This document shows, one piece after another, positions 1,118 through 27,995 of a stretch of 32,410 nt of DNA. Source of the stretch: Thermoanaerobaculia bacterium. Its GTDB lineage: Bacteria; Acidobacteriota; Thermoanaerobaculia; Multivoradales; JAHZIX01. Under the pieces are notes generated by a model. It saw only the letters and a list, made by a program, of their open reading frames with translations, was not told where the DNA came from and ran no database searches. The stretch spans positions 1-32,410 of the forward strand of contig JALXFE010000047.1 in the NCBI GenBank assembly GCA_027069135.1. The letters run 5' to 3'. A program made the translations under genes and the position numbers. How positions within the stretch are numbered: the stretch's first letter is position 1; the number at the start of each line of letters is the position of its first letter.

Positions 1118-3793
1118 TTGAGCAAAAAAACAACAATTCAAGAATTCATCCTCGGCCTTCAACCCAGAACTTGGCCACTGAACAAGGAGGAAGAACCTCT
1201 AAAGTTAGATGAGTGGTTTCGGTGGCCGCCTGATGTATTCGCTTTAACGTCGCTACTCCTAGGTTGCACAGGAGCTTATCGCCGAGCAGTCTCTCCTCCT
1301 GAGGTTGGCTGGCCAAAGAGTACCTGGCAGAAAGACGCTCGTCAGTTTGCTAGAGAATGGAAAAAGAGCCTACTCCAGAAAAAATCCCTTCCCCAGGGTC
1401 TCAAATCTAGGAAAGAGGCGTTGGAGAGTAACCTTTCTACGAAACTCGACTTGCTCTACGATAGTCTTCCCAAGAAGGGAGCTTGGGTGCTATGTCGATG
1501 TCTACTTGAGTTACATGCAATAGCTGACGAGGCAATGCATGGGATTGGAACAGTCTTCTCTCCGCATAGCAGCGAGAAGGAGAGATACAGCGACAAGGAG
1601 AGATACAGCGACAAGGAGAATTCTGACGAGGAGAATCCTGACGAGCTTCCCGAAAGAAAATACGCGCTTTTCCACCTTCAAGGAAATACTCTTCTATCCC
1701 TAAGAGGGTCATTGTCGAGAATTCCAAAATATAGAGGGATCGTTCTTCCGAAAGCGCGAACCCCCCAGGTCGGGCTCAGCCTTCGATCGCTGTCTCTGCA
1801 TCTCACCTTCCATCAAACTGAAGTAGATGTCGCCTGGTGCGCCTTCCCGTGGCTTAACCTTGACGAAAATACGCTAAACGCCCTCTTGGTGCCTTGGCCA
1901 TACAGGGTTGCACCAACGGACTTCCGCTCTGCTTCACACCCACGAACTCAGGAGGTGCTCGGGGAGTTCCGCTATTTCCACTACAAGCCAAGCTCGTTCA
2001 AGGAACTCGACGTGAAAGATGTAGTTCTCTCTATACGTTCCATCGCAGGTCCTCAGGTTAATAGAGTTCACTTGGTTGTATTTCCCGAGATGGCTCTAAC
2101 CCCTGACGAAATTGAACATCTCAAAGAGGAGCTTGAACGTTTCCCGGCGGACAAAATACCTATGATAGTGGCTGGAGTGAGCGGCAAATTCTCACCTTAC
2201 AATGAGGAGGTACCAAATCGAGATGAGGATCAAACTGTTGAGAGCGTGAAGGCTCCCGAAGGCGCTGTTGGGTTTAATAGAGTGGTACTATCGGTATATT
2301 TTGCGGGCCGGTGGTTCGACGCTATCCAAGATAAACACCATCGATGGTTACTCGACAACCAGCAGGTCCAAAGCTATAACCTAGGCGGATCTCTAGCTGG
2401 GGGCCGAGACTGGTGGGAAGCAATTCATCTCCCCAGACGGCGCCTCTCTATTCTGGCTGCTAGCTCGTGGCTTACCATCTGCCCTCTAATTTGCGAGGAC
2501 CTCGCACGGCAAGAACCTGTATCGGATCTCATCCGAGGTGTTGGACCGACCTTAGTTATTGCCCTCTTGATGGATGGCCCTCAACTCAAACACCGTTGGT
2601 CTGCGCGGTACGCGAGCGTCCTTGCTGATGATCCAGGTTCCTCAGTACTCACACTAACTTCACTCGGAATGGCTCGCCGGTCCCAGAAACACGAGAACAA
2701 TAAGAAAATCGGCAAGGCGCAGGAAGCTCCTGCTTCCCACGCTATCTCTCTGTGGAAAGACAGCGTGGATGGCCTCGTCGAGATATATGCCTCTGAAGAG
2801 GCTGGTATAAAGCCACCGCTAATAATTAGCCTCTCGGCAGTCTGGAATAAGGAGTATTCGGCAGACTCTCGGTCTGAGGCAGACAACTCAGCCACATTCG
2901 TTTATCAAGGTTGGTTCAGGCCAGACCGAGGAGAAGAGGTAGCCTTCGAGGCCGCTCCCCGAGAAATGAGGATCAACCAGATTGCCAATCGGGACGACAT
3001 CGTAGAAAGGCTTCAGCCAAAAGAGGCAATGGAAAGAAATCTTGCTGAGCCGAGAGAAACTGAATACAACACTCGAAACCATGACGCCATACATACGCGA
3101 GCCGCGATTCGCGACATGTGTGAACTAACGCTCTTCACCTACTACATAGATGCTCTTGTCGATACTACGACGGACCCTATGACACTCCTAAGCTGGTTCG
3201 ATGGTGCAGTTCGGACCGGCAATACCGATGACTCTTTCACATTTACGGAAGGCACTATCTCTGCTCTCTGCAGAGATAGTATTAATACTCGAGACTCCAT
3301 TCCTTCAGACATCCCAACCCAACCAATGCTCTACGCCATTGAGTCCGCAACTTCGATGGTTGTCGAGGCTATCGCCTCAATCGATTCAAAAAAGGATCAA
3401 GCGACATATCTCCAAGAGCGTTGGGAGGCGCTGGTTGGACTTGCGAAAAATCACCTCACCTCAATCCTCGTAAAGCTCGACGGGGGACTCGACGAAGAAA
3501 GTTTTAAGAAGGAAGCGCTGGAGACCACTAAGAGAAAAGTTAACGAACCTCTTGGGAAAGGCAGAGAGTTCGTTCGGGTTGCGATTGGCATTCCTCTGGC
3601 AATTCTATGGTCGATCCACTTACGACTTTCCACTAGGAGAAAATTCGGCAATCTTACGGTAGAGCAAGGAGAGTTGATGGAGGTTATTCAAGATACTCTT
3701 GCGCCGAAGAATCTTCCTGACAAAGAGCACTACCACTTGGGTTTTTTAAACTGGAGGAACCGACTGGATAACCCACCGCCGAGATCTAGATAG
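1118..3793 (+). CDS. Large nitrilase-superfamily-like protein (891 aa), possible defence effector
   Basis: The start is TTG at 1118, supported by GGAGG at 1108-1112. The protein carries the Glu-Lys-Cys triad of carbon-nitrogen hydrolases: E324 in VVFPEMAL, K406 in QDKHHRW and C459 in CPLICEDL, with nitrilase-like spacing. The core (about residues 300-570) is flanked by a roughly 300-residue N-terminal region and a 320-residue mainly helical C-terminal region that I do not recognise. Ordinary nitrilases are about 300 residues. Nitrilase domains are fused to reverse transcriptases in class 1 defence-associated RTs (established), but no RT YxDD motif is visible here. Residues about 153-178 form a charged, repeat-coded linker (RYSDKE repeats). 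The gene is clearly AT-richer than its neighbours and uses many rare-looking codons such as AGA, ATA and CTA, suggesting transfer. A role in defence is inference from context. Confidence 0.65.
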   Translation: MSKKTTIQEFILGLQPRTWPLNKEEEPLKLDEWFRWPPDVFALTSLLLGCTGAYRRAVSPPEVGWPKSTWQKDARQFAREWKKSLLQKKSLPQGLKSRKEALESNLSTKLDLLYDSLPKKGAWVLCRCLLELHAIADEAMHGIGTVFSPHSSEKERYSDKERYSDKENSDEENPDELPERKYALFHLQGNTLLSLRGSLSRIPKYRGIVLPKARTPQVGLSLRSLSLHLTFHQTEVDVAWCAFPWLNLDENTLNALLVPWPYRVAPTDFRSASHPRTQEVLGEFRYFHYKPSSFKELDVKDVVLSIRSIAGPQVNRVHLVVFPEMALTPDEIEHLKEELERFPADKIPMIVAGVSGKFSPYNEEVPNRDEDQTVESVKAPEGAVGFNRVVLSVYFAGRWFDAIQDKHHRWLLDNQQVQSYNLGGSLAGGRDWWEAIHLPRRRLSILAASSWLTICPLICEDLARQEPVSDLIRGVGPTLVIALLMDGPQLKHRWSARYASVLADDPGSSVLTLTSLGMARRSQKHENNKKIGKAQEAPASHAISLWKDSVDGLVEIYASEEAGIKPPLIISLSAVWNKEYSADSRSEADNSATFVYQGWFRPDRGEEVAFEAAPREMRINQIANRDDIVERLQPKEAMERNLAEPRETEYNTRNHDAIHTRAAIRDMCELTLFTYYIDALVDTTTDPMTLLSWFDGAVRTGNTDDSFTFTEGTISALCRDSINTRDSIPSDIPTQPMLYAIESATSMVVEAIASIDSKKDQATYLQERWEALVGLAKNHLTSILVKLDGGLDEESFKKEALETTKRKVNEPLGKGREFVRVAIGIPLAILWSIHLRLSTRRKFGNLTVEQGELMEVIQDTLAPKNLPDKEHYHLGFLNWRNRLDNPPPRSR
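1577..1627 (+). repeat. Tandem 18-base repeat inside the nitrilase-like gene
   Basis: Two perfect copies of AAGGAGAGATACAGCGAC (1577-1594 and 1595-1612) are followed by shortened 15-base derivatives (AAGGAGAATTCTGAC and the next GAGGAGAATCCTGAC). They encode KERYSD, KERYSD, KENSD, EENPD, a charged linker. In-frame copy number change would alter linker length without breaking the gene. Confidence 0.85.
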
Positions 3794-6200: not shown

Positions 6201-7106
6201 TCAGCCAGCCTGCCCCGGGATCGCCAGCACCTGCACCGCCCGCCGCTTTGCTCCCTCGTCCCGCCGGTCGTAGCGAGCCGTGGTGGAGGCATCGGCGTGG
6301 CCGGCGAGCTTCTGGACGGTGAAGACATCGACGCCAGCATCGAGGAGGTGGGTGACGGCTGTTCTCCGTAGGTCGTGAGGGGAGAAGCGGTCGGTGCCCG
6401 ATTCTTCCTGTCGGCGGCGGAGGATGTAGGCGATGGATTCGCCGCGGAGGCGGGAGAGGCGCACTTCTCCAGTCTGGCTGACGGGACAGAAGAGGGGGCC
6501 GGGGTCGTCGCCGCGGTGGAGGAGCCAGGTCTTGAGGTGGCGGCAGGCTTGAGTGCCGAGGTAGACCGTGCGCTGCTTCCGGCGCTTCCCCTGGACCAGG
6601 ATGGAGTTGTCGTCGGGAGCGAAGTCCTCGACATCGAGTTGGGCGAGCTCTCCGCGGCGGAGCCCGCACCCGTAGAAGACAGCGAATAGGGCCGCGTCCC
6701 GGGCACCCTTGGGAGTCGTGTCGTCGGTGCAGGCCCGGAAGAGCTTCGCGATCTCGTCGCCTGCCAGTGCCCGGCCGCTGAGGAGATTGGAGCTGCGCAG
6801 GTTTTCGACATCGATGGCGCGGCGGTAGTGGTCGGCATCGACCAGGCCCAGGCGCCAAGTCTGCTTCAGGACGCCCCGGAGGGTCGAGAGCATCTTGTTG
6901 ACCGTGGACGGCTTGTAGCGCTCGGTGAGGGTGATGCGGACCTCCATACTCTCGCGGTAGGTCACCGTCTCCCAGGGGAAGGTGTCGGCGTCGGCGGTAT
7001 CGCTGAGGATGCCGGCGATGATGTCGAGGCATTTCCGCATACCCTGGCTGCCGGCGGAAAGGCTGGCCATGTAGAGCTGGACGGGATTGGCTGTCGTGGC
7101 GGTCAT
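6201..7106 (-). CDS. Tyrosine recombinase / integrase (301 aa)
   Basis: Complete phage-type integrase. The catalytic set is visible: first Arg in GCGLRRGELAQLD, His and Arg in SPHDLRRTAVTHLL, and His and nucleophilic Tyr in KLAGHADASTTARYDRR. An N-terminal SAM-like core-binding domain (about residues 1-100) precedes the catalytic domain. ATG at 7106 is preferred because AAGGGAG lies five bases upstream; an ATG at 7121 would overlap the upstream gene's stop (ATGA) but has no Shine-Dalgarno sequence. Either way translation is coupled to the 80-residue gene. It should catalyse site-specific integration or excision of the element holding these genes. It appears intact, unlike the relic at 9130-9387. 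Confidence 0.9.
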   Translation of the reverse strand: MTATTANPVQLYMASLSAGSQGMRKCLDIIAGILSDTADADTFPWETVTYRESMEVRITLTERYKPSTVNKMLSTLRGVLKQTWRLGLVDADHYRRAIDVENLRSSNLLSGRALAGDEIAKLFRACTDDTTPKGARDAALFAVFYGCGLRRGELAQLDVEDFAPDDNSILVQGKRRKQRTVYLGTQACRHLKTWLLHRGDDPGPLFCPVSQTGEVRLSRLRGESIAYILRRRQEESGTDRFSPHDLRRTAVTHLLDAGVDVFTVQKLAGHADASTTARYDRRDEGAKRRAVQVLAIPGQAG

Positions 7107-7117
7107 TTGGGCTCCCT

Positions 7118-7360
7118 TCATTCGGCGACGGATTCGAGGAATTCGGCAAGGGCTTCGTCGATGCCTCCGTTCAAGCCCCGAAGACGCTGGTAGGCCAGTT
7201 CGATGGCGGTGGGATTGACGCCGTGCTCGGTGCCCTCGTCCCAGCAGCTACCGCAGCTCGGATCGTCGATGACCTGGGCCACCTGCTCGGTGACGGCGGC
7301 GCCGAGCTCTATCCAGCGGTTGGCGAATTCGATGAGGTTGGCGGGGTCGATGTCGTGCAT
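7118..7360 (-). CDS. Small acidic protein (80 aa) coupled to the integrase
   Basis: ATG at 7360 with AAAGGGAGA six bases upstream; the TGA stop at 7118-7120 overlaps an integrase ATG. The protein is acidic and helical with one CxxC pair (SCGSCWDEG), so it could bind a metal, but one pair is not enough for a standard zinc finger. Its position directly in front of the recombinase gene fits an accessory (directionality or control) role, which is inference. I do not recognise a family. Confidence 0.65.
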   Translation of the reverse strand: MHDIDPANLIEFANRWIELGAAVTEQVAQVIDDPSCGSCWDEGTEHGVNPTAIELAYQRLRGLNGGIDEALAEFLESVAE

Positions 7361-9387: not shown

Positions 9388-9480
9388 GTCGTAAACAGGG
9401 CCGAGCGGTGCCATCCGCGGCATGAGGAGGGGGTGGGCGTGGAATTAACGCCAAGACGGGTCATGTACACGTGAATTCAC
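9254..9480. repeat. Two copies of the palindrome GTGAATTCAC, plus AATTCACAT direct repeat
   Basis: The perfect 10-base palindrome GTGAATTCAC occurs at 9254-9263 (inside the recombinase relic) and at 9471-9480 (18 bases upstream of the -35 box). The second copy extends to AATTCACAT (9474-9482), which recurs at 9541-9549 in the operon leader. The pair 9474-9482/9541-9549 brackets the promoter, an arrangement seen when a repressor binds on both sides. The copy inside the relic may be chance. Confidence 0.45.
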
Positions 9481-9498
9481 ATTATTTATCGCATTGGG

Positions 9499-9527
9499 TT
9501 GACAAGTAGTTTGCTGCTGCCTACTAT
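9499..9527 (+). promoter_or_regulatory. Sigma70-type promoter of the defence operon
   Basis: TTGACA (9499-9504) is a perfect -35 box; 17 bases later TACTAT (9522-9527) is a fair -10 box. Transcription would start near 9534, giving a leader of about 25 bases before the ATG at 9559. No other equally good promoter is seen inside the following operon, whose genes overlap. Confidence 0.7.
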
Positions 9528-9558
9528 CGGCCTACATGCTAATTCACATCCTGTGGAG

Positions 9559-10884
9559 ATGATGCCTTTGCCCGCAGTCACCAGTCATCGCTGGACCCCA
9601 CCAACCACGCCGCAACTGGCCGAGCGCTGGGACGCGGAGACTTACGTGTTCGGCCTGCAGGAACGCGGCTCGTGGTTCGCCCTCGGTAGGCTCAAGGCCC
9701 GGCTTCGAGAAGGTGAGCGCGTGCCGTCCGCCGAGGCCGTCGAGCTCGGCCTGTACAGGCCGTCGTCGCTTGTGGGGCTCATGCTCCACGATGATGACCT
9801 GGCGCCGATGCCCTCGTCCTGGGGAGAGCTCTCGCCGGTTGGGCTCGGGGACGTGGTGCTATCCAAGTTCCTGCCCGTTTCGGCCGCGTGGGTATCGCAG
9901 TCCACACCGCGTCGCCCCAGCGACGCCAACTGCGTCCGAGTGATCGGGTTGGCCAGCGACCAGGGCTTCTGGATCGCCAACGTGCTCGAGCACCCGACGT
10001 ACCAGCAGATGCTCGCGAGACGGGCTTCGGCCGCCACCATTCCCCGCGTCGGTCTCCGGGACCTACGTGCCCTTCGGGTTCCCGAGACGCCGCTCGGGAT
10101 CGGCGGGCTGACCGCGGAGTGGACCCGGGCCAGCCGTGATCTCACTGCAGCGCGAGAGGGCATCCGGGCGCTGCAGGACGAAGTCAACACTTGGGTCGAG
10201 CTGGATGAGCCGCCGTCACTCAGCGCCCTCGAGCCGCGGTTCTACCCGGCCGCCGATGTGGACGACTCCTGGACCCCCGGGCGCCTCGCGCTGCGCGGCT
10301 ACCAGTCGGCGGCGTCCCGCCGGGGTTGGGTGCGCTTGGCAGAGCTGCTGTCAGAGGATTCCGAGCGACTCCGCGGTCGGCGCGTCGAGGCGCTGCGGGT
10401 GCTCCGGCTGAGCGACGCCGACGGCGGGTTCGGGTTCGACCTCCCGGAACTCGCGGAGCTTAGGCACCCGACCTTTAGGATCTACGCCCGCCCCTTCGGC
10501 GCTGGCGAGGTTCTGTTGTCGGTGCTGGGCTCGGCCTCGAAGGTCGTCTTCCACCACCCGGGGCGTGCAGCGACTGTCTGGCTCTCCGACCACTGGGCCC
10601 GCTTTCAGCCCCGCGAAGACCCGGGCGCGCTAGCGCTGTTGCTCCGCGGCCCGGTGGTATCCGGGCAGCTTGCACTGGCCACCACGGGATCGGCCCGTCA
10701 GTTCGTTCCGCGCACCGAGCTGCTGGACATCCACATCCCGTGGCCCGAGTGCGACCGTCGGCGTCACTGGCACGGGCGTCTGTCAACGGCACTCGAGGGC
10801 GTCGCGCAGGCGAACGACCGCCTCGAGGCGGTGCGGACCGAGATGCGCGGGCTCGTCGATGAACACCTGGGAGGTCGCCGATGA
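9559..10884 (+). CDS. HsdS-like DNA specificity protein (first of two)
   Basis: ATG at 9559 (or 9562) is chosen because the promoter -35 box occupies 9499-9504, ruling out the longer TTG-started frame; GTGGAG lies immediately upstream, so initiation is probably weak. The protein resembles type I specificity subunits in layout: two target-recognition-like halves (about residues 30-190 and 235-420), each ended by a helical spacer (TRASRDLTAAREGIRALQDEVNTW and LSTALEGVAQANDRLEAVRTEMRGLV). Such subunits bind a bipartite DNA target and dock on HsdM. The resemblance is weaker than for the second HsdS at 13252. It overlaps the next gene by ATGA. With two specificity-like proteins and one methyltransferase, one may guide modification and the other recognition, which is inference. 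Confidence 0.6.
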   Translation: MMPLPAVTSHRWTPPTTPQLAERWDAETYVFGLQERGSWFALGRLKARLREGERVPSAEAVELGLYRPSSLVGLMLHDDDLAPMPSSWGELSPVGLGDVVLSKFLPVSAAWVSQSTPRRPSDANCVRVIGLASDQGFWIANVLEHPTYQQMLARRASAATIPRVGLRDLRALRVPETPLGIGGLTAEWTRASRDLTAAREGIRALQDEVNTWVELDEPPSLSALEPRFYPAADVDDSWTPGRLALRGYQSAASRRGWVRLAELLSEDSERLRGRRVEALRVLRLSDADGGFGFDLPELAELRHPTFRIYARPFGAGEVLLSVLGSASKVVFHHPGRAATVWLSDHWARFQPREDPGALALLLRGPVVSGQLALATTGSARQFVPRTELLDIHIPWPECDRRRHWHGRLSTALEGVAQANDRLEAVRTEMRGLVDEHLGGRR

Positions 10885-11249
10885 CGCCCGAGATCATCTC
10901 TCAACTGCGTACGCGGATGCAGAGCCAACCGCGCACCTTGACCGAGCTGTACCGCGCCGCCGTGGCGGTCGGCAGCCCCTGGTCCGAAGACCAGGTCGCC
11001 CTGCTGCTGGCGTGCCTCCCCGACGTCGAGGAGAGTGACGGGGCGTACGTGGCGGCCACGGGCGAGGAGGACGATCCCGTCACCAAGGCGCTCTTGCAGA
11101 TCGTCGGCGGCACGCCCGTTCCGGCCGCAGCGCTCGTGCGCCGCATGCCACGGGGCGTCGTCGTCACGCCGGCCGCGCTCTGTCAGATCGCCCGCAACCA
11201 CCAGGACCTCGAGCTCGTGGGTCCCAACCGAATTCGTCGCAAGACGTGA
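10881..11249 (+). CDS. Small two-domain protein, possible tandem winged-helix (122 aa)
   Basis: ATG at 10881 overlaps the preceding stop (ATGA) and has GGGAGGT upstream. The chain appears to repeat one fold: residues 1-55 (ISQLRTRMQSQPRTLTELYRAA ... VALLLACLPDVEESDGAYV) and 65-122 (VTKALLQIVGGTPVPAAALVRRM ... ALCQIARNHQDLELVGPNRIRRKT). Each half has a helix-turn-helix-like stretch followed by a beta hairpin ending in a charged strand, as in winged-helix DNA-binding domains. It may contact DNA next to the methyltransferase or regulate the operon. It ends 17 bases before hsdM. The fold is inferred by eye. Confidence 0.65.
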   Translation: MTPEIISQLRTRMQSQPRTLTELYRAAVAVGSPWSEDQVALLLACLPDVEESDGAYVAATGEEDDPVTKALLQIVGGTPVPAAALVRRMPRGVVVTPAALCQIARNHQDLELVGPNRIRRKT

Positions 11250-11266
11250 GCACAAGGAGAAGCCCG

Positions 11267-13252
11267 ATGTCCGATCTCACCACCAGATTCGAGGGCCTGA
11301 AGGCCGAGGCTGCCAAGCTCGGCTACCGGGACGTTCTCGATTTCAAGACCGACCGCGGCGACCAGGCGACGTGCGCGGTCTGCTGGGGCAAGGAGCGCGG
11401 CGCTCCAACTGGCCGAGTGCTGCTCGCGGCGCTCCCGGACGACGCGCTGGGCGACACGGCTGCGGACGATGTGCTTCAGCTGGCGTGGCAGGCACCGGTC
11501 GACGGCGCCTCCGAACCGGTGGCCGCCATGGTCGACGCCGGCGGCGGCGTGCGGAAGTTCGATCTGGATCCCTTCGCCCCCCACGAGATCGATCGGCTGC
11601 CGAAGCCGGAGCACGTGCACGAGCTGAAGCGGCTGTCCCGCGAGCCGACCTTCGAGTGGTCGTTGCGGGTGTACGAGCGGCTGCAGCGGGGCTTCGACGA
11701 CTTCCACGAGCAGGTCTACGGCTCGGTCCGGGACACGGTCGACGGCAAGAACGACATCATCGACGAGACGGCCAAGTTCCTTTTCCTGGAGCTGTTCCGC
11801 CTGATGCACTCGGACGCGGAGAAAGTGTTCGGCTATGAGGGCCAGCGTCTGTCGCTGGACGAGGTGTTCAACGCCGAAGCCTTCGAAGCGGGCGGCAAGG
11901 CAGAGCTCACCGAGGCGGTGGCCAAGGTGAAGGCCGCCTTCGAGGCGGTCAAGGGCCACGCCGACTACGTGACCACCGCCGACGACGGCGAGCGCATCCC
12001 CATCTTCCCTGCGGACGTGCACCTCAAGCTGTCGACGCCGCGCAACTACGCCACCCTGATCGGACTGCTCCAGGATCTGCCGCAGTTACACGACAACCGC
12101 GGGCGCCCGCTGGACCGCGAGGGCACGCTGAAGGATGTGGCGGGCGACGTGCTTGGCCGGGCCTTCGATGTCTTCCTGCGCCACAAGTTCCAGAAGGAAG
12201 GGATCGGCATCTACTTGACCCCAGCCCCGGTCAAGCGGGCGATGGTGGACATCGTGCTGCACGACATCGAGGCCCACGACTTCGGCAGCCTCACCGCGCG
12301 CGACGCACAGGGTCGGCCCACCTTCCGTGCCGGCGATCCGGCCGGGGGGTCGCTCGGCTTCCTCGTGGCGCTTCTGCCCCCGCTGCGCCGGATGCTCGAG
12401 AAGATGAACCTGACCGACGAGGAGCGCGATGCGCTCTGGAAAGACATGCTCGAGCACTCTTTCGTGGCCGCCGACAGCTCCCCGCGCATGGTGCGTCTGG
12501 GGCGGCTCAACATGGCGCTGCAGGGGGCGCCGCGAGCGCGGGTATTCAACACGGCCAACAGCCTGACCACCGGGCTACTGAAGCCAGGCTCCCTCGATCT
12601 GATCCTCACCAATCCGCCCTTCGGCACTCCCAACGCCAAGAAGGTGGAGGAGAAGAAGGCCGTTGCCGCCTTGATGGCCCACTTCCGCAGCGACGTGGAC
12701 TTCGACGCAATGAAGGGCAAGGGTGGGTTGATGACGCCCAGCCCTGAGGGGCTCGCACTTGGCTGCAAGCCCGACAAGAAGGGCGTGTGGAAGGAGAAGG
12801 ACTCGGGCGTGGACCTGTCGGTACTCTTCCTCGACCGGTGCTTGCAGCTCCTCAAGCCGGGAGGGCGGCTCGTGATGGTGGTGCCCGACAGCCTGCTGTG
12901 CAACGCCAATACCCGCTACGTGCGCGAGTACCTCATCGGCAAGAAGGACGACGAGACCGGCCAGTTCCACGGCGGCAAGGCCATCGTCAAGGCAGTGGTC
13001 AGCCTGCCCGCTGACGCCTTCAAACTCGCCGGCACCGGGGCCAAGACCAGCATCCTCTACGTTCAGAAGCGCCGCGCGCAGAAGGACGACCCAGAGCGCT
13101 TCGTGGACGAGCCGCAGACCGACGTGTTCATGGCCGTGGCCGACACCCTCGGCTACGTCGTCAAGAACAACCAGGAGGAGTACCGCCAGGGCGGCAAATT
13201 CATCCCCAACGACCTGGTGCCTATCGTGGGCGCGTACCAGCGGGGGGAGTGA
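11267..13252 (+). CDS. hsdM: Type I restriction-modification-like N6-adenine DNA methyltransferase (HsdM)
   Basis: ATG at 11267 is preferred over GTG at 11246 because AAGGAGA lies six bases upstream. The N-terminal helical region (to about residue 320) includes FHEQVYGSVRDTVDGKNDIIDETAKFLFLELF, a typical HsdM N-terminal block, followed by GIYLTPAPVKRAMVDI. The catalytic motif IV is intact: LILTNPPFGTP with N449-P-P-F452. Motif I (SAM binding) is unusual: GDPAGGSLGFL (D357) where the family has DPACGSGGFL, with Cys and a Gly replaced. LLKPGGRLVMVVPDSLL and a C-terminal helical part follow. It should methylate adenine at the sites chosen by the HsdS partners. Its TGA overlaps the ATG of the next gene. 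No HsdR exists in the operon. Confidence 0.9.
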   Translation: MSDLTTRFEGLKAEAAKLGYRDVLDFKTDRGDQATCAVCWGKERGAPTGRVLLAALPDDALGDTAADDVLQLAWQAPVDGASEPVAAMVDAGGGVRKFDLDPFAPHEIDRLPKPEHVHELKRLSREPTFEWSLRVYERLQRGFDDFHEQVYGSVRDTVDGKNDIIDETAKFLFLELFRLMHSDAEKVFGYEGQRLSLDEVFNAEAFEAGGKAELTEAVAKVKAAFEAVKGHADYVTTADDGERIPIFPADVHLKLSTPRNYATLIGLLQDLPQLHDNRGRPLDREGTLKDVAGDVLGRAFDVFLRHKFQKEGIGIYLTPAPVKRAMVDIVLHDIEAHDFGSLTARDAQGRPTFRAGDPAGGSLGFLVALLPPLRRMLEKMNLTDEERDALWKDMLEHSFVAADSSPRMVRLGRLNMALQGAPRARVFNTANSLTTGLLKPGSLDLILTNPPFGTPNAKKVEEKKAVAALMAHFRSDVDFDAMKGKGGLMTPSPEGLALGCKPDKKGVWKEKDSGVDLSVLFLDRCLQLLKPGGRLVMVVPDSLLCNANTRYVREYLIGKKDDETGQFHGGKAIVKAVVSLPADAFKLAGTGAKTSILYVQKRRAQKDDPERFVDEPQTDVFMAVADTLGYVVKNNQEEYRQGGKFIPNDLVPIVGAYQRGE

Positions 13253-14700
13253 TGTTCTCGACGCGAGTTACTCCCGGCCTTCTGATGGCTCGTATCAACT
13301 CCGAAGCGTACGCTCCCGTACACACGGCAGCAGAGGCGCAGCTGCGGTCCAGCGGGCTCACAGTGTCAAGTCTCGGCGATGTCGTGGACAAGCCAATCAA
13401 CAATAGCATTCGCAACGTGGCCGCGGAGTTGGACGCCCCCGGCGCGACAGTTCCGATGTTCCGGCCTGCCGACATGTCGGATGGTTGGCTATCTATCGAA
13501 TCGGCACCCAGGCTTCGAGTCGACTTCGAGCGCACCCACGCTAAGGCCCGCGTGTACCCCGGAGACTTGGCACTGGGCATCGCGGGTACCGTCGGCGAGG
13601 TCGGCCGCGTACCCAGTTCCACGACTCACGGAAACATCAACGGCAGTTGCGCTCGAATCGCCCCGAAGGACAGCTACAAGGGCTACCTGCACGGGTTTCT
13701 CCGCAGCAGGTACGGACAGAGTTCTCTCATGCGGTGGGCTGTTGGGGCGGTCCAGAAGCACATTAACCTGGAAGATCTGCCGGGCGTCCTGATCGCGGCT
13801 CCCGCCAGCGAACAGGCGCGGCTGTACATCGGCAACAAGGTTCGCCAGGCCGAGGCGCTGAGGACGGCGGCAAGCATCAATCGAGACACTGCTCACCAGG
13901 CAATCCTCGGTGACTCGACGTTCGAGTTGGAGCCATCCTTCTCAGAGGCGCCCCGGCGGATCGATGCCACCGACGTGTCCGACGTGTCTTTGGACCCGTC
14001 ATTTGTACGCGCGACCAGAGGGCATCGGCTTGTTCCCAGCGGCCTCCCGCTCGCCGAGATGGCGAACTCCTGCAAGTGCGGCGAGCCCATCCGTGCGGAT
14101 GAGCGCCAGCCGGGCCCGTATCCTTACTACGGCGCCTCCGGACCGATCGACGTACACGACGCCTACAACTTCGACGGCGAGTTCCTCGTCGTGGCGCAAG
14201 ACGGCTCCATCGGCTGTGTAGACGTGGCTCGCGGACGGTTCTGGGGAAACAACCACGTTTGGGTCTTGTCGCTCGGAAGAGGCTACGATTTGGATGCTGT
14301 CGCGTTGTATCTGCGGGACTACTACCCGTACTGGTCCGGAGCCACCACCGGTAGCGTTGTCCCGAAGGTGACATCCAAGAACCTGCTGCGCGTCTGCCTC
14401 CCGGAAGCTGTAGCCAAGGAAGGCGCTGGGATTGGTCCGCCCTGGCGTCGCGCCGTCGAGCAATCTGCGTTCGCGAAGCGCCTGACAACGGCGGCCCGAT
14501 TCCTGGTGGAAGCGCTCCTCGAGCGCAAGGTCACTGAGGCCGACCTCATTGCTGCGCACAAGAGCCCCGAGGCCGACCGCTCACTCTCAGAGCGGCTGAC
14601 TGTCGACGGACTGGACGCACCCGGGACCGAACCGCTCTTCACCGACTTGGACCGGCTGGAGGTGCTGTTGAACGAGGCCCAAGCGAAGGAGACCGAATGA
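13252..14700 (+). CDS. hsdS: Type I specificity subunit (HsdS), second of two
   Basis: ATG at 13252 overlaps the hsdM stop (TGATG), with GGGGGGAG just upstream. Both target-recognition domains are recognisable: the first reads AGTVGEVGRVPSSTTHGNINGSCARIAPK, HGFLRSRYGQ and VQKHINLEDLPGVLI; the second LAEMANSCKCG, YPYYGASGPIDVHDAYNFDGEFLVVAQDGSIG, FWGNNHVWVL and TTGSVVPKVTSKNLLRV. Helical spacers (RLYIGNKVRQAEALRTAAS and FAKRLTTAARFLVEALLERKV) follow each. This is the canonical HsdS layout and the protein should form the methyltransferase with HsdM and define its target. Its end overlaps the next start by ATGA. Confidence 0.88.
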   Translation: MFSTRVTPGLLMARINSEAYAPVHTAAEAQLRSSGLTVSSLGDVVDKPINNSIRNVAAELDAPGATVPMFRPADMSDGWLSIESAPRLRVDFERTHAKARVYPGDLALGIAGTVGEVGRVPSSTTHGNINGSCARIAPKDSYKGYLHGFLRSRYGQSSLMRWAVGAVQKHINLEDLPGVLIAAPASEQARLYIGNKVRQAEALRTAASINRDTAHQAILGDSTFELEPSFSEAPRRIDATDVSDVSLDPSFVRATRGHRLVPSGLPLAEMANSCKCGEPIRADERQPGPYPYYGASGPIDVHDAYNFDGEFLVVAQDGSIGCVDVARGRFWGNNHVWVLSLGRGYDLDAVALYLRDYYPYWSGATTGSVVPKVTSKNLLRVCLPEAVAKEGAGIGPPWRRAVEQSAFAKRLTTAARFLVEALLERKVTEADLIAAHKSPEADRSLSERLTVDGLDAPGTEPLFTDLDRLEVLLNEAQAKETE

Positions 14701-15854
14701 GCACGTCCGCTCCATCGATCCCGGCGCTGGCCAAGATATTCGCCGAGGGCAGCACACGAGTGCCCGAGAGGTGGGGTCTGTCCGGACCGCAGCAGACCGG
14801 GCTGTGGTGGCGCGCCGGCCTGGACGTGGTGGGCACACCGCTGCTGCTCCGCCTGGGGGCACGGATGTCCAGCGAGGGCGAGCGCGTCGGGCTGCTGCTC
14901 GCCACCGAGGAGCGGTTCCGCGACCCGTGGACCAACGTCACCGCGGCGAGGCTGGCGGAGCTGGGCCGTCGCGGTCGAACGGCCGATCTGTGTCGGCAGA
15001 TCTCCGAGCTGGGCGCCGTCGCGAGCGTGCTCCGGGAACGCGTCGCCCATGCCAAGGCAACACCGACCGCTCACGCTCCGCTGGAGTTGTCGCTGTGGGG
15101 CGCGCCGGCGGATCAGCCGGCGGCGGCTCCGGGCTTACTCCGAGTGCTCGGCCAGACCGCCGCACTGGTCGAAGGCGGACAAGGCGCCGAGGCGCAAGCG
15201 CTATTAGCGGTTGACCCGCGAGATCCGGAGAACAACTGGGTCGGCGGGCGCCTCATCCAGGCGCCGGGGCCCGCGGGAGCCTCGGGCCCTGCCGTGCTCT
15301 CGGGCGCCGTACCGGCGTGCCCCGCACCTACGGAGATGGTGGCGCGCATGGCGTGGGTGCTGGAGACGCCCTGGGTCACGCTGCTGGCCGTGCTCGCCTT
15401 CACCGCCGAGGCCTGGGCCGCCGAGCGCCAGGGTGGCATCGAGCTGGAGCTGCCCGGACGCCTGGTGGAGCACCTCGCGCGGCCCCCACGCATCGACGTG
15501 GTGGTGACCCTGGCGGATGGCCAAGAGGTGCTGTGCGGCACCCTCGGCGAGCTCTGCCTGCGGGCGCTGGACGCCCTCGGCATGGCCGTGGTGCCCACCA
15601 TCGACGCCGCCGAGTTGGACCGGCGCCTCGGGCCCGTGGTGGCCGAGCTGCTGCGGGCCGGCGTGTGGCGCTTTCGGGCCGACGGCCGCACCCGTTACGA
15701 GATAGGAGAGATCTTCGGCTACGACTGCTACCGGGGCGAGGGTCACCGCCACATCTTCCTCGGCTCGGAGGCGCTGTCGCAGACGCTTCGCGGCGTGGCC
15801 GTGTCCTGGGCCAAGGCGCGCGTCGAGCAGGCCGGGCGCGAGGTGCGCGCATGA
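14697..15854 (+). CDS. Operon gene of unknown function (385 aa), part of the defence locus
   Basis: ATG at 14697 overlaps the hsdS stop and has AAGGAGA six bases upstream. The protein is soluble and helix-rich, with no motif I can name. Residues 150-190 are Ala/Gly-rich (LLRVLGQTAALVEGGQGAEAQ), and the C-terminal part (ELDRRLGPVVAELLRAGVWRF, RYEIGEIFGYDCY) looks like a compact folded domain. It lies between the modification genes and the large ATPase and overlaps the next gene by ATGA, so it is probably made in stoichiometry with them. It may be a structural or adaptor subunit (inference). Confidence 0.7.
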   Translation: MSTSAPSIPALAKIFAEGSTRVPERWGLSGPQQTGLWWRAGLDVVGTPLLLRLGARMSSEGERVGLLLATEERFRDPWTNVTAARLAELGRRGRTADLCRQISELGAVASVLRERVAHAKATPTAHAPLELSLWGAPADQPAAAPGLLRVLGQTAALVEGGQGAEAQALLAVDPRDPENNWVGGRLIQAPGPAGASGPAVLSGAVPACPAPTEMVARMAWVLETPWVTLLAVLAFTAEAWAAERQGGIELELPGRLVEHLARPPRIDVVVTLADGQEVLCGTLGELCLRALDALGMAVVPTIDAAELDRRLGPVVAELLRAGVWRFRADGRTRYEIGEIFGYDCYRGEGHRHIFLGSEALSQTLRGVAVSWAKARVEQAGREVRA

Positions 15855-16849
15855 GCTGGGTCCTCGCTCGCCCATCGTTCTGGCCCGAGCCCCGCGATCC
15901 GTGGGCCTGGCAGCGTGCCCTCCAGACCATTGCGAAGGTGGCGCCGGTGCCCGATCCGCGCCCGTGCTGGAGGCGCGTCCTCGGAGACTCGCTGTCCCGG
16001 CGCTCTGTCGCAGGGTTGTACGGGCTGCGACGGTCGCCGGCCCCACCGACGGTGGTGGGCGTTGGCCTGCTGGAGCAGGACGCTGCCGGCTGGCACCTCT
16101 CACGTACCGGCGCGACGCTCGCGGAGCTCGACCGGGAGCTGTTTCAGGTCCAGCTGGCCGAGACCCTCGTTCGACAATCCGGCTGGCTGCGCCTCGCCCT
16201 CGTCGGGCTTGCCTCCGGCCGGTGGAGTCTCCCCCGTGGGGCGGCGGCCCTGTGCGCCCAGCGGCAGATGCGGCTTCACGAGGATCTGGCGGTGCCGGTA
16301 GGTGCCCTGCAGCGTCTGCCGGACACTCGCCGACTCCTCGGCGCTCTGCACCATGAGGACACGACTGCCGTGGGCACCAGCGTCCGCCCAGAGGCCCTTT
16401 CGGCGCTGCACGCCCCGCTGTACTTGCTGCACGCTCTCGACTGGCTCGACGCGGACGGTCGCCCGCGGTTGCCCGACGCCCTGGCCGCCAGCCTGGCCAT
16501 CGAGTCCCCGGCAGCGGCGCTGCGGCGCCTAGCCAACGAAGAGCAAGACGCCCGGGGCTTCGTGCCGCTCGTGCGGGTCTCGGAGCGCCTTCGCGCAGCG
16601 CTCTGCGGCGAGGTGGTCCTTAGTGACCCCCTGGAAAGGGCCGGCGTCCTGGCCGCGTGGATCGACAAGACCATCGGCGGCGCCATCGAGACGGGCGCGA
16701 TCGAGGTTCACGCCTGGGCCCCGGGCCAGCCGCGACACGGCCGAGGGTTGTACGGCGATCGAGACCGAAAGCTGGTCCGGTGGACCGTGCACGATGACCT
16801 GCAAATCCCGACGAGCGCGCCAGATCGGAACAGAGAGGTGAAGCGATGA
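15851..16849 (+). CDS. Operon gene of unknown function (332 aa), helix-rich
   Basis: ATG at 15851 overlaps the previous stop. The frame is open far upstream (to 15317), but the extension lies antiphase inside the preceding gene and has low-quality, Arg/Gly-rich sequence, so the short start is right. The protein begins with Trp/Pro-rich sequence (PSFWPEPRDPWAWQRALQTI). A stretch reading VVGVGLLEQDAAGWHLSRTGATLAELDRELF resembles a winged-helix wing ('...W-x-LS-x-x-G'). The remainder is helical, ending in a basic tail. It precedes the giant ATPase with an ATGA overlap and could be its partner or DNA-contacting subunit. No family recognised. Confidence 0.7.
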   Translation: MSWVLARPSFWPEPRDPWAWQRALQTIAKVAPVPDPRPCWRRVLGDSLSRRSVAGLYGLRRSPAPPTVVGVGLLEQDAAGWHLSRTGATLAELDRELFQVQLAETLVRQSGWLRLALVGLASGRWSLPRGAAALCAQRQMRLHEDLAVPVGALQRLPDTRRLLGALHHEDTTAVGTSVRPEALSALHAPLYLLHALDWLDADGRPRLPDALAASLAIESPAAALRRLANEEQDARGFVPLVRVSERLRAALCGEVVLSDPLERAGVLAAWIDKTIGGAIETGAIEVHAWAPGQPRHGRGLYGDRDRKLVRWTVHDDLQIPTSAPDRNREVKR

Positions 16850-19800
16850 ACCCGAAGCAAATCCACAAGTGGGAGCCCACGGGCGTGACCGCCTATCCGA
16901 TCACGCACCCCATCGTCGGGCAGACGGACTTCTACCGGAAGCTGAAGCACTGGTTGCCGCTAGTGAGCGGTGATCGGTTCGCGCATGTCTTCGCGATGGT
17001 CGCGCCCTGGGGCGTGGGCAAGTCACGGTTGGGCTACGAGGTCGTGGCCCAGGTCAACGACGCCTCATGCGGGTGGAAGGTCCGCGGTGACGACGGGGCC
17101 ATGACCGACGCCCAGCTCTTCGACAGCGATACTGAGCGCGACAAGCACCTGGCGCTGTACGTCCGCTACTCCCAGGTTGCGCACCGGCGGCTGAACCTGG
17201 ACAACTGGTTCGCGCCCGCCGTGTACAAGGCGCTTGCACCACTGGCGCGAGGCCAGTTCGACAGCTCCATTCAGCACCGCATCGCCAAGCAGTCCTTCGA
17301 TCGACTCGAGGCTGAGGGCTTCGATCCCGCTCGACTGGCCCTGGCAATGGAGCTGCAGGAAGACCACGGCGAGGCGATCTACACCGACACCGCCTTGGCG
17401 ACTCGTCTGTGCAACGCCTCCTTCGAGATCCTGAAGGAGTACGGCATCGAGTACGTGGTCATCGTGCTCGACGAGTTGGAGACCGCTGCCGAGCGTGCCA
17501 CTGGCGGGATGGAGGCCGAAGAGGCGCGGGCGATGGACGGGAAGTCGATCACCATGCTGCGAAAGGCCGTGGAGCTGCTGGGCCGCCCCGACATGGATCG
17601 CTCGGATATGGACAGGGCGTCCATCGAGATGATGAGCAAGGCGGTCAAGGAGGAGGACGCCCGGGCGCGCTTCCCCTGGCTGCGCTTCGTCGCGCTGTGC
17701 TCGCCGGCGATCGGTGACGAGCTCAAGGAGGTGCAGTCCACCGACCGCCGCTTCGAGATCGTCGATCTGACCCGCAACGCCTTCGCCGACGTCAGCACCT
17801 TCGTGCACAGCCTCGAGGCCGAGGGTCGCTTGCTGCGCACCTACCCGAAGGGCCTGGTGGAGGCGGCCTACATGATGAGTGGCGCCAACTTCGGTTGGTT
17901 CAACGTCATCATGGCGGTGGTCGACCAGGTGCTGGCGCGGGTTCCCGAGGGCGAGACCCGCAGCCTGTCTTGGGTGTTTCAGCGCGCCATCCAGATCCAG
18001 GAGCGGATCGGGCGCTACGTGCTCGATCACCGTAGCCTCGACGAGATCCCGCTCAAGGGCGCTGACCGCGACGCCGCCGCCGATCTGCTCTTCGGTCAGC
18101 AGCCCCGGCCGGTGGGCGATTTCGATGGAGACCAGACCATGCGTCTGCTCGACACGCGCAACGCCCACGGCGAGTCGGTGGCGGCTCGCTATCACCGGGC
18201 GGTGTGGGAGCCTCAGGCGTGCGTCCAGACGCTGGTCGAGAACCGCTTTCAGCGCCAGTCTGGAAGCTCGCGCTGGACGGCGCCCGGCATCCCCGAGCCC
18301 ATCGATCTAGAACGCCTGCTCGACGACCTCGCCACGATGGCGGTGCATGAGGCCGCCGGTGCCGACGACGAGGCCCAGCCCCTGCTGCTCCCGGGCACCC
18401 TCCCAGGCTTCCTGCAGCTGCTCGACCTGGTCCACCCACACCCGGCGGCAGAGGAGACAGGGCGGACCCTGTGGATGAAGCTCGTGGGAGCCGGCGGCAT
18501 GCCTGAGGGCGAGCTGACCCACATCGGGCCCTCGGTGGAGATGCTCCGGCGCCTCGACATCCGGCTGCGCAAGGCCAGCGTCGGCGCGATGCTGCGCGAC
18601 CCGGTGGAAAACGAGGCTCTGAGCCAGGTCCTGGACAGCGCTCGTCACGGGGAATCGAAGCGATCGCTCCGCGTACTCACCGGTGCCCTCCGAGTGCTCG
18701 ACCGCAACTGGGGCTACGACGTGGAGCCCGCGGGGCTCGGCGATGACGTGGTCGCGATCAAGACGCCCAAAGAGGGGTTGGTGGACTTCAAGGGGCTGTG
18801 GCTGCACCCCAAGGGCCAGGCGACCTTCGCGTGGGTGACGAGCGACGAGTCTCTCAAGCAGCTCGCCAAGGCCGTGGCGCGGGACCATCGCAAGGCCGGG
18901 CGCTACCCGGTGGTGGCGCTGACCACCGACTACGAGCTCCCGGATCGCTTCGCGAAGAGCCAGCTCGACGTGTTCAAGAAGGCGCGGGACACCATCGTGG
19001 TGGTGCACCTGAACTCCGGCGAGGAGTCAGCGCTGCTCTCGGTCGGGCTGCCGACCACCCAGTGGCAGGGATTCCGCCTGCGGGCCGACGGCTTCACGAC
19101 CCGCTTCGCCGAACGGCTCAACCGGATCCGAAACCCCATCGCCAAGCGCGTGCGCCAGTGGCGCCATGACATCGGGGCACGGGGCCGGATCGCGTGGCCG
19201 CTGCGGCCCAGCGGGACGCTCAAGCCGGAGTCTCTGCAGCGCCTCGTCTCTGGCTGGCGAACGGTCATGCTGGACCACGGGGGCAAGAAGCTCGGCGACG
19301 TCGGCGCCGCCCCCGGGCTCGACCAAGGCGCGCTGCTACAGGAGATCGAGCGGCTCGGGCAGAGCCCCGCGGCCGCGCCGAAGGGCTACGGCGGCCAGGA
19401 CGCAGCCTGTTTGTGGGTGGACCAGGGACCGGAGGCGCACCCCGAGGTGCCTCCGTTCTTGTTGCGTTCCATCGTCCTGCGCCTCTTCAACAACGCCAGC
19501 CTGCCGATGACCGCCGACTCCGTGAAGGCCGACTGGTTCTGGGGCTTCACGTGGGACGGTAACCGCACCGGCGACATCTTTCGCGAGTGGCTGAGCGTCG
19601 CCGTCGACCTCGGTTGGGCCGAGGCCGAGGGTGTGGGCAAGAACAACACGAAGACGCAGTACGTCTTCGTGCTTCGCGAGGCGCTCCACGGGAAGCTTGC
19701 GGCGGCCCGGAAGTGGCTCGACGAAGACTACCCGGGGATCGTCAAGGACCTCTCCACCCTGCTCGGTGAGGGCCTGGTCGACACCTGGTTCAAGCCCTCC

Positions 19801-21138
19801 ACGGGCTCCAAATACCAGAACGCGGTCCAGCGCCTCGATGAGGCCACCCGCGCCCTGGAGGAGCTCGACGCGCTGGAGACCAACCCGCCTTGTGAGGACG
19901 ACATCGCGACGGCGCAGGACTGGTTCACGCGGGCGACGCGGCTCCGGCTTCGGGCCCGCGACCTGGTGGCTCAGGTGTTCGACAAGGCAGGCTACGACGA
20001 GCTTCCGGCGGATCTGGACGGCCAGACCCTCCACCTCACCGATGAAGAGCGGCCCCTCTGGGAGCGGATCCGGCAGGCGAAGCACTTCGCAGACGCGGTG
20101 CAAAAGCTCGCGCGACGGATCCGAAAGCGCATCACATCGCTGAGCGAGGAGATCCGCCTGGAGGTGGCGGGAATCCACGCCTTCCCGGTCAACCTGTTCG
20201 TGCGCCCGCTCTCCAAGATCGATCACATCGTGGACGCGGGCCTCACGGGCGAAGACCCGCTGTGCACCACCAAGCGCGTTCAGCACGCAAAACCGGACAC
20301 GCTGGCGTACTACTTGAAGGAGCTTCGCGTCGCCGACGCCATGGCTGCGATCCGCGGTTTCGCCAAGGAGCTGGGGGTTGGCGAGCGAGCGGCAGACGAC
20401 CAGGCGCTCGCCGATGTGGACGGTGAGATCGTGGTCGGCTTCCACGACCTGATGGAGCGATACGGCGCTGCCAGGGCCGCGTTGTTCGATCTAACCGGTC
20501 GTGTCCATGAACTCGAAGACGCCCTCAAGGACGCTCCATCCGACTTCAGCTTCCCTGGCACGGTGGCACTGAGCGACGTTAGCGGGCGTCCGGCGTTGAT
20601 CGACGGTGTGCTGGCCCAGTCGCTCGAGGATGACGTCGAGGACATGCTCGAACGGCACGACACCGAGATGAACTACGGCAGGTTCGGTCCGCTGATGCGG
20701 GAGGTGCGCACGAAGCTTCTGGACACCCCCGAGCGGTCGCTCAAGGGACTCGAGGGGAAGGTGCGCACGCTGGAGAACGCCGTCGTCGCGTACCGCCAGG
20801 AGCTGCTCAAGGATGAGACGCTCCGGTCCCACCGAGCGGGTCTCAATGGCCTGCGGCGTGCCAAGAGTCAAGCCGCCGTGGCGCTGCCCGAGATGTCGGA
20901 TCTGGAGCCGAGATCGCTCAAAGATGGTCGTATCCACATCGACGGCGTCGCCATAGGCTGGGCCAAGGATGGCGGCGCCCTCCTCGATGGCACCGGTGTG
21001 TCCTTCAACCAGTGGCTGCGGGCAGTCGCCGCCGTGAACGAGGAGAAGGATCCGGGGCTGTCCGGTGACCAGATCGAAGGCCTGGTCCGCGAGGGCTTCC
21101 TGCGGCGAATCTACGCATTGGCGGGAGGTGACGCATGA
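16846..21138 (+). CDS. Very large P-loop ATPase of the defence operon (1430 aa)
   Basis: ATG at 16846 overlaps the previous stop with AGAGGTGA upstream. The N-terminal ATPase domain has Walker A WGVGKSRL (K59) and Walker B YVVIVLDELE (D209, E210), followed by an arginine-rich AAA-like lid region (RRFEIVDLTRNAFADV). Beyond about residue 420 follow several regions with no motif I know, mostly helical, including a likely coiled coil near 1290-1350 (LKGLEGKVRTLENAVVAYRQELL). Size and N-terminal placement of the ATPase recall BrxC/PglY of BREX/Pgl systems, but I see no convincing family match. As the biggest protein of the operon it is a candidate motor or scaffold that reads DNA state and licenses the nucleases. 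Its stop overlaps the next gene. Confidence 0.85.
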   Translation: MNPKQIHKWEPTGVTAYPITHPIVGQTDFYRKLKHWLPLVSGDRFAHVFAMVAPWGVGKSRLGYEVVAQVNDASCGWKVRGDDGAMTDAQLFDSDTERDKHLALYVRYSQVAHRRLNLDNWFAPAVYKALAPLARGQFDSSIQHRIAKQSFDRLEAEGFDPARLALAMELQEDHGEAIYTDTALATRLCNASFEILKEYGIEYVVIVLDELETAAERATGGMEAEEARAMDGKSITMLRKAVELLGRPDMDRSDMDRASIEMMSKAVKEEDARARFPWLRFVALCSPAIGDELKEVQSTDRRFEIVDLTRNAFADVSTFVHSLEAEGRLLRTYPKGLVEAAYMMSGANFGWFNVIMAVVDQVLARVPEGETRSLSWVFQRAIQIQERIGRYVLDHRSLDEIPLKGADRDAAADLLFGQQPRPVGDFDGDQTMRLLDTRNAHGESVAARYHRAVWEPQACVQTLVENRFQRQSGSSRWTAPGIPEPIDLERLLDDLATMAVHEAAGADDEAQPLLLPGTLPGFLQLLDLVHPHPAAEETGRTLWMKLVGAGGMPEGELTHIGPSVEMLRRLDIRLRKASVGAMLRDPVENEALSQVLDSARHGESKRSLRVLTGALRVLDRNWGYDVEPAGLGDDVVAIKTPKEGLVDFKGLWLHPKGQATFAWVTSDESLKQLAKAVARDHRKAGRYPVVALTTDYELPDRFAKSQLDVFKKARDTIVVVHLNSGEESALLSVGLPTTQWQGFRLRADGFTTRFAERLNRIRNPIAKRVRQWRHDIGARGRIAWPLRPSGTLKPESLQRLVSGWRTVMLDHGGKKLGDVGAAPGLDQGALLQEIERLGQSPAAAPKGYGGQDAACLWVDQGPEAHPEVPPFLLRSIVLRLFNNASLPMTADSVKADWFWGFTWDGNRTGDIFREWLSVAVDLGWAEAEGVGKNNTKTQYVFVLREALHGKLAAARKWLDEDYPGIVKDLSTLLGEGLVDTWFKPSTGSKYQNAVQRLDEATRALEELDALETNPPCEDDIATAQDWFTRATRLRLRARDLVAQVFDKAGYDELPADLDGQTLHLTDEERPLWERIRQAKHFADAVQKLARRIRKRITSLSEEIRLEVAGIHAFPVNLFVRPLSKIDHIVDAGLTGEDPLCTTKRVQHAKPDTLAYYLKELRVADAMAAIRGFAKELGVGERAADDQALADVDGEIVVGFHDLMERYGAARAALFDLTGRVHELEDALKDAPSDFSFPGTVALSDVSGRPALIDGVLAQSLEDDVEDMLERHDTEMNYGRFGPLMREVRTKLLDTPERSLKGLEGKVRTLENAVVAYRQELLKDETLRSHRAGLNGLRRAKSQAAVALPEMSDLEPRSLKDGRIHIDGVAIGWAKDGGALLDGTGVSFNQWLRAVAAVNEEKDPGLSGDQIEGLVREGFLRRIYALAGGDA

Positions 21139-23122: not shown

Positions 23123-23143
23123 GCAAGAAATGGAGATAAGCAG

Positions 23144-27919: not shown

Positions 27920-27995
27920 TGGTGGGCCGTGCAGGGATCGAACCTGCGACCATCTGATTAAAAGTCAGGTGCTCTACCAACTGAGCTAACGGCCC
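27920..27995 (-). tRNA. tRNA-Lys (anticodon UUU)
   Basis: The reverse strand reads a full cloverleaf: acceptor stem GGGCCGT/ACGGCCC, D arm with AGCTCAGTTGGTAGAGC, anticodon stem CTGAC/ATCAG region with loop carrying TTT, T arm with GGTTCGATCC, and an encoded CCA end (27920-27922). Seventy-six bases with CCA. A -10-like TATACT (28001-28006, minus strand) lies a few bases upstream of the 5' end. tRNA genes are common integration sites for tyrosine-recombinase elements, relevant to the defence operon beginning 18 kb away. Confidence 0.97.

Follow-up and report, generated by a model that had tools for sequence, protein, structure and literature searches.

What does a second, diverged specificity protein do in an operon that already has one HsdM and one canonical HsdS, and that has no HsdR? 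The question is raised by a locus on contig JALXFE010000047.1 of a Thermoanaerobaculia bacterium, and the stretch studied here (the window) is this contig in its full length of 32,410 bp, part of a draft assembly of 7.17 Mb. A preliminary description made from the sequence alone saw at 9559-14700 a Type I-like module without HsdR and with two HsdS proteins, and this much stands, but the module is not self-contained: the segment makes up less than one third of a tight operon of 12 genes on the forward strand (9559-26809), nearly gapless and mostly with 4-bp overlaps between genes, whose remaining genes, including those for HerA, a NurA-fold protein, a large ATPase, a possible nuclease and a kinase, run on to 26809. 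The gene order is g1 (HsdS fold), winged helix-turn-helix (wHTH) protein, HsdM, HsdS, g5, g6, 1430-aa ATPase, g8, NurA fold, HerA, g11 and kinase, and we think it rather probable that the whole is a methylation-guided anti-invader operon in which the canonical HsdS, g4, sets the specificity and the upstream HsdS-fold protein, g1, is a promoter-binding autoregulator. The features on which this reading turns are the following.

9467-9481, forward strand: site 1, an operator-like bipartite sequence (ACACG-N5-TCACA), found de novo and by genome-wide count.
9499-9527, forward strand: predicted sigma-70 promoter (TTGACA-N17-TACTAT), 10 of 12 matches.
9534-9548, forward strand: site 2, an operator-like bipartite sequence (ACATG-N5-TCACA), found de novo and by genome-wide count.
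9559-10884, forward strand: g1, HsdS-fold protein with frozen target recognition domains (TRDs), proposed autoregulator; from an AlphaFold model, Foldseek, hhalign and TRD conservation.
10881-11249, forward strand: g2, small probable winged-helix protein; from a weak DprA_WH match (E 0.04), present in 54 of 67 loci.
11267-13252 (alternative start 11246), forward strand: g3, HsdM-type N6-adenine methyltransferase with NPPF motif; from Pfam and PADLOC.
13249-14700, forward strand: g4, HsdS with TRD cassettes turning over and a conserved C-terminal tail; from Pfam, PADLOC and TRD comparison.

The presence of one HsdM and one canonical HsdS is borne out by profile matches, since g3 matches Pfam N6_Mtase (1.6e-16) and PADLOC MTase_I (651 bits) and carries an NPPF motif, and g4 matches Pfam Methylase_S (4.7e-10). 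The g1 protein has no Pfam match and weak PADLOC Specificity_I matches (6.7e-5), and its AlphaFold model, with a predicted local distance difference test score (pLDDT) of 84.6, shows two TRDs with a long helix after each. When this model was compared with the Protein Data Bank (PDB) using Foldseek, the top matches were S subunits of Type I and IIB enzymes (BsaXI S at 2.9e-13, EcoKI S at 2.2e-11, PacII S, 1ydx and 1yf2), and in hhalign g1 can furthermore be aligned over its whole length with the g4 family (E 3.4e-22). Judged by its predicted structure, g1 is a genuine HsdS-fold protein, and the earlier suspicion that the protein starting at 9559 is a second, diverged HsdS was thus correct. The conserved C-terminal tail of g4 is absent from g1.

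The two S proteins have evolved in opposite ways, as can be seen among 67 contigs with relatives of the operon, found by one genome scan with g7. In near-identical operons (HsdM 95-99% identical) the TRDs of g4 share 13-35% identity and those of g1 77-98%, and over 11 pairs of loci in which HsdM identity is 95% or more the median TRD identities are 27/16% for g4 and 94/95% for g1, the coiled coils of g4 being 81/67% identical in the same pairs. In wider comparisons the TRDs of g1 are more conserved than its coiled coils, and for g4 the opposite holds. The behaviour of g4 is thus that of a usual specificity subunit, which diversifies within a conserved frame facing HsdM, and g1 behaves as if its DNA-reading domains were not free to change. 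Single g4 cassettes are furthermore sometimes common to distant loci (e.g. TRD2 at 80%), which is the signature of cassette exchange and suggests that the cassettes are drawn from a common pool. Across phyla, identities of 66% were seen for TRD1 of loci L018 and L029 and of 59% for TRD2 of L014 and L040.

In a HerA tree of 57 loci, 32 have an S protein before g2 in addition to the one after HsdM (two-S loci), and one clade of 20 loci is without g1 (one-S loci); the label changes only four times on the tree, and L033, which begins at a contig end, is not scorable for the presence of g1. The upstream S proteins of clostridial loci form a different subfamily with unrelated TRDs (12-16%).

What the unchanging TRDs might read is suggested by the DNA 5' of g1, which on alignment within lineages has repeated bipartite motifs around the promoter. 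In the window these are ACACGTGAATTCACA at 9467-9481 and ACATGCTAATTCACA at 9534-9548, flanking TTGACA-N17-TACTAT at 9499-9527, a predicted promoter with 10 of 12 matches (0.2 expected in shuffles); an alternative TTG start at 9499 given by the ORF finder is really the TTGACA of the -35 box. Site 1 ends 17 bp upstream of the -35 box, and site 2 follows closely on the -10 box, where transcription would be expected to start. The pattern occurs twice in the contig and six times in the 7.17-Mb genome, and the copies at 9467 and 9534 are the sole close pair. In Alphaproteobacteria and Variovorax the corresponding motif is ACRYG-N5-TCACA, arranged as an inverted pair, and in gammaproteobacteria it is GCGT-N4-ACTCGCA, arranged as a direct pair, both of which fit a 15-bp register, RCRY-N6-TCRCA. 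The strict gammaproteobacterial form was counted in four genomes (Legionella massiliensis, L. bononiensis, Marinobacter pelagius and Parahaliea mediterranea) and occurs exactly twice in each, both times in the g1 promoter.

When repeated bipartite words were looked for with no motif given, the same sites came up in most two-S loci and nothing consistent in one-S loci. The latter keep g2, lack g1 and have no enrichment of sites (11 observed against 13.4 expected), and a search of eight one-S genomes gave no clustered site copies. Of the 23 non-clostridial two-S loci that could be tested, about 20 have site pairs, a number of which were recognised by eye, and L014, L023, L032 and L043 have site pairs of their own, likewise identified partly by eye. 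The sites hence co-occur with g1 and not with g2; their asymmetric bipartite form has a gap of 5-6 bp, which is within the range of HsdS coiled coils, the elements that set the gap between bipartite half-sites (PMC12707154); the TRDs of g1 are frozen; and g1 is the first gene behind the promoter. From these observations we infer that g1, rather than g2, binds the paired promoter sites. When the site types are compared, their first half-site has no adenine in common, which is a mild argument against g1 serving in methylation.

The autoregulator reading is, to be sure, met by several points that weigh against it. Loci L018, L019 and L040 have g1 and no clear site pair, and the clostridial two-S loci, with their different upstream S subfamily, have other and less clear candidate repeats. 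The shuffle p-values of individual loci are modest (0.04-0.4, with 25 shuffles each), and the RCRY-N6-TCRCA consensus was drawn from the same two-S loci in which it is enriched, so that this enrichment is partly circular; independent support comes from searching de novo, from counting sites across whole genomes and from the one-S loci as a control. The identity of g2 is furthermore 33% between one-S and two-S loci and 45-46% within either class. That the operon functions in defence is likely from family resemblance and neighbouring genes, and the reading as a whole is built on sequence and predicted structures.

The division between the two classes of g2 favours the doubtful alternative that this wHTH protein reads the promoter sites and that g1 does something else, as a conserved S protein of structural or scaffold kind, and it is in agreement with this notion that g2 is small, probably a winged helix and the second gene of the operon. 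One-S loci nonetheless keep g2 and are without the sites, the sites are asymmetric and bipartite in the manner of HsdS targets and not palindromic, and within g1 it is the TRDs that evolve slowly, as expected if these have to go on matching a fixed site. Somewhat easier to entertain, although we put it forward tentatively, is the possibility that g1 is an HsdM-sensing transcription factor, in which case g1 and g4 would compete for HsdM and an HsdM-g1 complex at the promoter would either repress the operon or reset it by methylation.

The preliminary description offered two explanations of its own for the paired S proteins, neither of which fares well. That they give two methylation targets, with HsdM-g1 methylating a fixed genome-wide motif besides that of g4, would be in keeping with the complete HsdS fold of g1, both TRDs included, alongside a single HsdM, but it is quite unlikely, since the candidate g1 site is nearly absent from genomes outside the promoter (two per genome in the four gammaproteobacteria, six in the window genome), the TRDs of g1 are not diversifying, its coiled coils, by which an HsdS binds HsdM, are much less well conserved than the coiled coils of g4, and the first half-site is without a conserved adenine. 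That one S protein directs methylation and the other the attack at the same target would account for two S proteins in a locus with no HsdR, but the TRDs of g4 are replaced while those of g1 stay, a change of target after which attack would no longer follow the marking and the host would be killed, and the clade of 20 one-S loci manages without g1; we regard this division of labour as highly improbable. Least credible of all is that the operon is an orphan or decaying Type I restriction-modification (RM) system that borrows an HsdR from elsewhere. The contig is indeed without HsdR, as had been noted, a profile search having given no ResIII match anywhere on it, and no hsdR lies directly outside the locus, which is flanked within the contig by about 9.5 kb and 5.6 kb. 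One HsdR is present in the genome, the sole HSDR_N gene of the draft being found on another contig (C467), but it is adjoined by HsdS-sized and HsdM-like open reading frames (ORFs) of its own, and BLAST found a relative of it in just one of the 67 related loci (L015), on the opposite strand and at the edge. The operon is furthermore intact and conserved, which speaks against decay, and an HsdR elsewhere in the genome was accordingly rejected as its partner. It should be mentioned that the assembly is a draft of 626 contigs with 97% completeness, so that absence of genes elsewhere in the genome is not absolute.

The attack would fall to the genes downstream of g4.

14697-15854, forward strand: g5, conserved 385-aa protein of unknown fold; from conservation among relatives.
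15851-16849, forward strand: g6, conserved 332-aa protein of unknown fold, in a subset of loci; from conservation among relatives.
16846-21138, forward strand: g7, 1430-aa P-loop ATPase with GVGKS and a Walker B motif VLDELE; from motifs, and the hallmark used for finding relatives.
21135-21959, forward strand: g8, conserved 274-aa protein of unknown fold; from conservation among relatives.
21956-23122, forward strand: g9, NurA-fold protein with a possibly degenerate active site; from a model (pLDDT 85.7), Foldseek and alignment.
23144-24823, forward strand: g10, HerA-family hexameric DNA translocase; from DUF87 (3.4e-39) and HerA relatives in the PDB (6e-45).
24816-25376, forward strand: g11, 186-aa candidate PD-(D/E)XK-type nuclease; from motif inference only.
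25373-26809, forward strand: g12, Ser/Thr protein kinase with C-terminal extension; from Pkinase (2.8e-31) and PADLOC PD-T4-6 and mad6.

No model in Pfam, PADLOC or NCBIfam covers g5-g9 or g11, and profile searches of g5, g6, g8, g9 and g11 against PDB sequences gave nothing meaningful; the g7 family has a weak KAP_NTPase match in two members of the A8 set. The model of g9 has NurA (2ygk) as its top Foldseek match (E 5.5e-10), and hhalign against a single true NurA gave no alignment, so that the NurA assignment comes from structure alone. In 40 aligned relatives, with residues mapped by sequence pattern only, the stretch resembling the DGS motif of NurA reads hydrophobic-Gly-Gly with the Asp lost, and by the same mapping Asp150 is lost in L043, L077 and L079; since the Asp is missing from this stretch, g9 may be a degenerate nuclease. 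The invariant residues of g11 are E59, D70, E86-x-E88 and K99, and an acidic pattern of E, D and E-x-E occurs in some PD-(D/E)XK enzymes such as BamHI, so g11 is a possible nuclease of this type as far as its motifs go. The kinase motifs HGDIKPQN and DFG of g12 are intact.

We suggest that HsdM and g4 would mark a bipartite site in the host DNA. Where HsdM-g4 binds such a site in unmodified form, it would license attack by recruiting a g7 complex (g7 with g5, g6 and g8) and the HerA motor together with the NurA-fold protein as partner, g9 and/or g11 supplying the nuclease parts and the kinase g12 acting as a switch or regulator. Marking and attack would both use g4, since it is the sole component that changes target specificity, and this scheme of attack is proposed by analogy with other HerA-coupled systems (PMC10853773). 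With both TRDs held constant, g1 would read the site pair around the promoter as an autoregulator, probably a repressor, and not as a second host-DNA specificity; repression would suit the positions of the sites, site 2 covering the transcription start and site 1 lying just upstream of the -35 box.

The same gene order is found nearly constant in the 67 contigs, which come from at least eight phyla, including Pseudomonadota, Planctomycetota, Acidobacteriota, Verrucomicrobiota, Cyanobacteriota and Bacillota. HsdM is present in 59 of them, the g4-family S protein in 63, the NurA-fold protein in 62, HerA in 61, g11 in 60, the kinase in 59 and g2 in 54, many of the missing components being due to contig ends. 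The HerA tree mixes phyla, for instance a Planctomycetota contig with Variovorax, which points to horizontal transfer, and tblastn with g7 and HerA gave no match in plasmids. ORFs for integrases, DarT, Fic, YhcG, Schlafen and ResIII are found inside or beside the loci, the setting expected of defence islands. Two variants of the operon were seen. The loci L076, L078 and L079, and partly L077, are a deep-branching form whose HsdS gene separates the NurA-fold gene from that for HerA and whose HsdM is followed by a different protein of 500-550 aa, that of L076 having no Pfam match. In the one-S gammaproteobacterial loci L036, L047, L055 and L058 the g1 position holds genes of about 690 and 390-490 aa that adjoin the wHTH gene; AAA_5 was found in five scanned ORFs, and the pair is possibly McrBC-like.

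Several known systems share parts with the operon. The methylation-associated defence system (MADS; Maestri et al. 2024, cited in PMC12904381) likewise joins HsdM, HsdS, a Ser/Thr kinase and a HerA-type ATPase in one operon without HsdR, and PADLOC matches at superfamily level only were obtained for g3 (mad2, 57 bits), g4 (mad5, 24), g10 (mad8, 90) and g12 (mad6, 144). In a reciprocal search against a real MADS locus (L084, with mad2, 5, 6, 7 and 8), however, only HsdM, HsdS, kinase and HerA match families of the operon, g1, g2, g5-g9 and g11 having no match there. The NCBIfam models MADS5 and MADS6, whose cut-offs are 400 and 460 bits, give 16 bits for g1 and 124 bits for g12, respectively, and neither the genes of the window nor those of 54 relatives match mad7, mad1, mad3 or mad4 of PADLOC. 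Membership in MADS was rejected after this comparison, the two being related in logic. Type I RM systems share with the operon HsdM and a TRD-swapping HsdS with two TRDs, but the operon is without HsdR and has about ten other conserved genes, and many loci have a second, non-swapping HsdS. Bacteriophage exclusion (BREX) systems (PMC12839542) are likewise multi-gene, with an N6-methyltransferase and a large ATPase, and a kinase in Type-2 BREX, but the methyltransferase of the operon is HsdM/HsdS and not PglX, and Pfam and PADLOC scans found no PglZ, BrxC/PglY or PglX in it, giving just two isolated weak BrxA matches. A HerA motor coupled to anti-invader parts is also seen in HerA/FtsK capture, in DndFGH (PMC10853773) and BRC (PMC12839542), and a HerA ATPase with a NurA-fold neighbour recalls the HerA-NurA pair; an HsdM/HsdS arrangement of the present kind was not found in either of these papers.

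Self-regulation of such operons has precedents. RptR, a 79-aa dedicated repressor of Type I RM islands, reads 6-bp palindromes (PMC12255303), and these islands resemble the operon in being self-regulated, with a repressor as first gene and repeated promoter sites, but the candidate regulator here is an HsdS-fold protein and its sites are bipartite. In CfrBI and other RM systems a Type II methyltransferase or promoter methylation controls its own operon (PMC12707154), so that the modification part governs its own promoter, but the operon would use a separate Type I-style specificity protein in place of a Type II methyltransferase. No such operon is described in the BREX and HerA-capture papers searched (PMC12839542, PMC10853773). 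PADLOC splits it into orphan Type I parts, and it is apparently unnamed in the libraries searched. Literature searches, with preprints and most subscription journals outside their scope, gave no account of this operon or of an HsdS as a promoter-binding regulator. To our knowledge there is no earlier case of an HsdS serving as the regulator of its own operon, and it would be new if confirmed.

Elsewhere on the contig, a tyrosine recombinase lies upstream of the operon (6204-7121, reverse strand; Phage_integrase 1.5e-33), and downstream are RadC (27007-27669) and tRNA-Lys (27920-27995), which together with the recombinase could be an integrative island; a shared att repeat of at least 13 bp was not found inside the contig. 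For an 891-aa protein at 1118-3793 (forward strand) Pfam gave no match and PADLOC a very weak one of nitrilase/DRT type (E 0.028), and the DNA around it has a GC content of 51-54%, far below the rest of the contig; it is possible that this is a second, separate defence gene.

One gene order across many phyla, with two S proteins together of which one diversifies and one is frozen, amounts to a natural experiment on the specificity subunit. If g1 is indeed the operator protein, a specificity subunit can become a regulator, and one could say concretely how so dangerous a payload in an operon is restrained. If, furthermore, the HsdM-sensing form of this regulation were true, expression of the attack machinery would be tied to existing protection of the host, by a Type I-style controller built from a specificity subunit.

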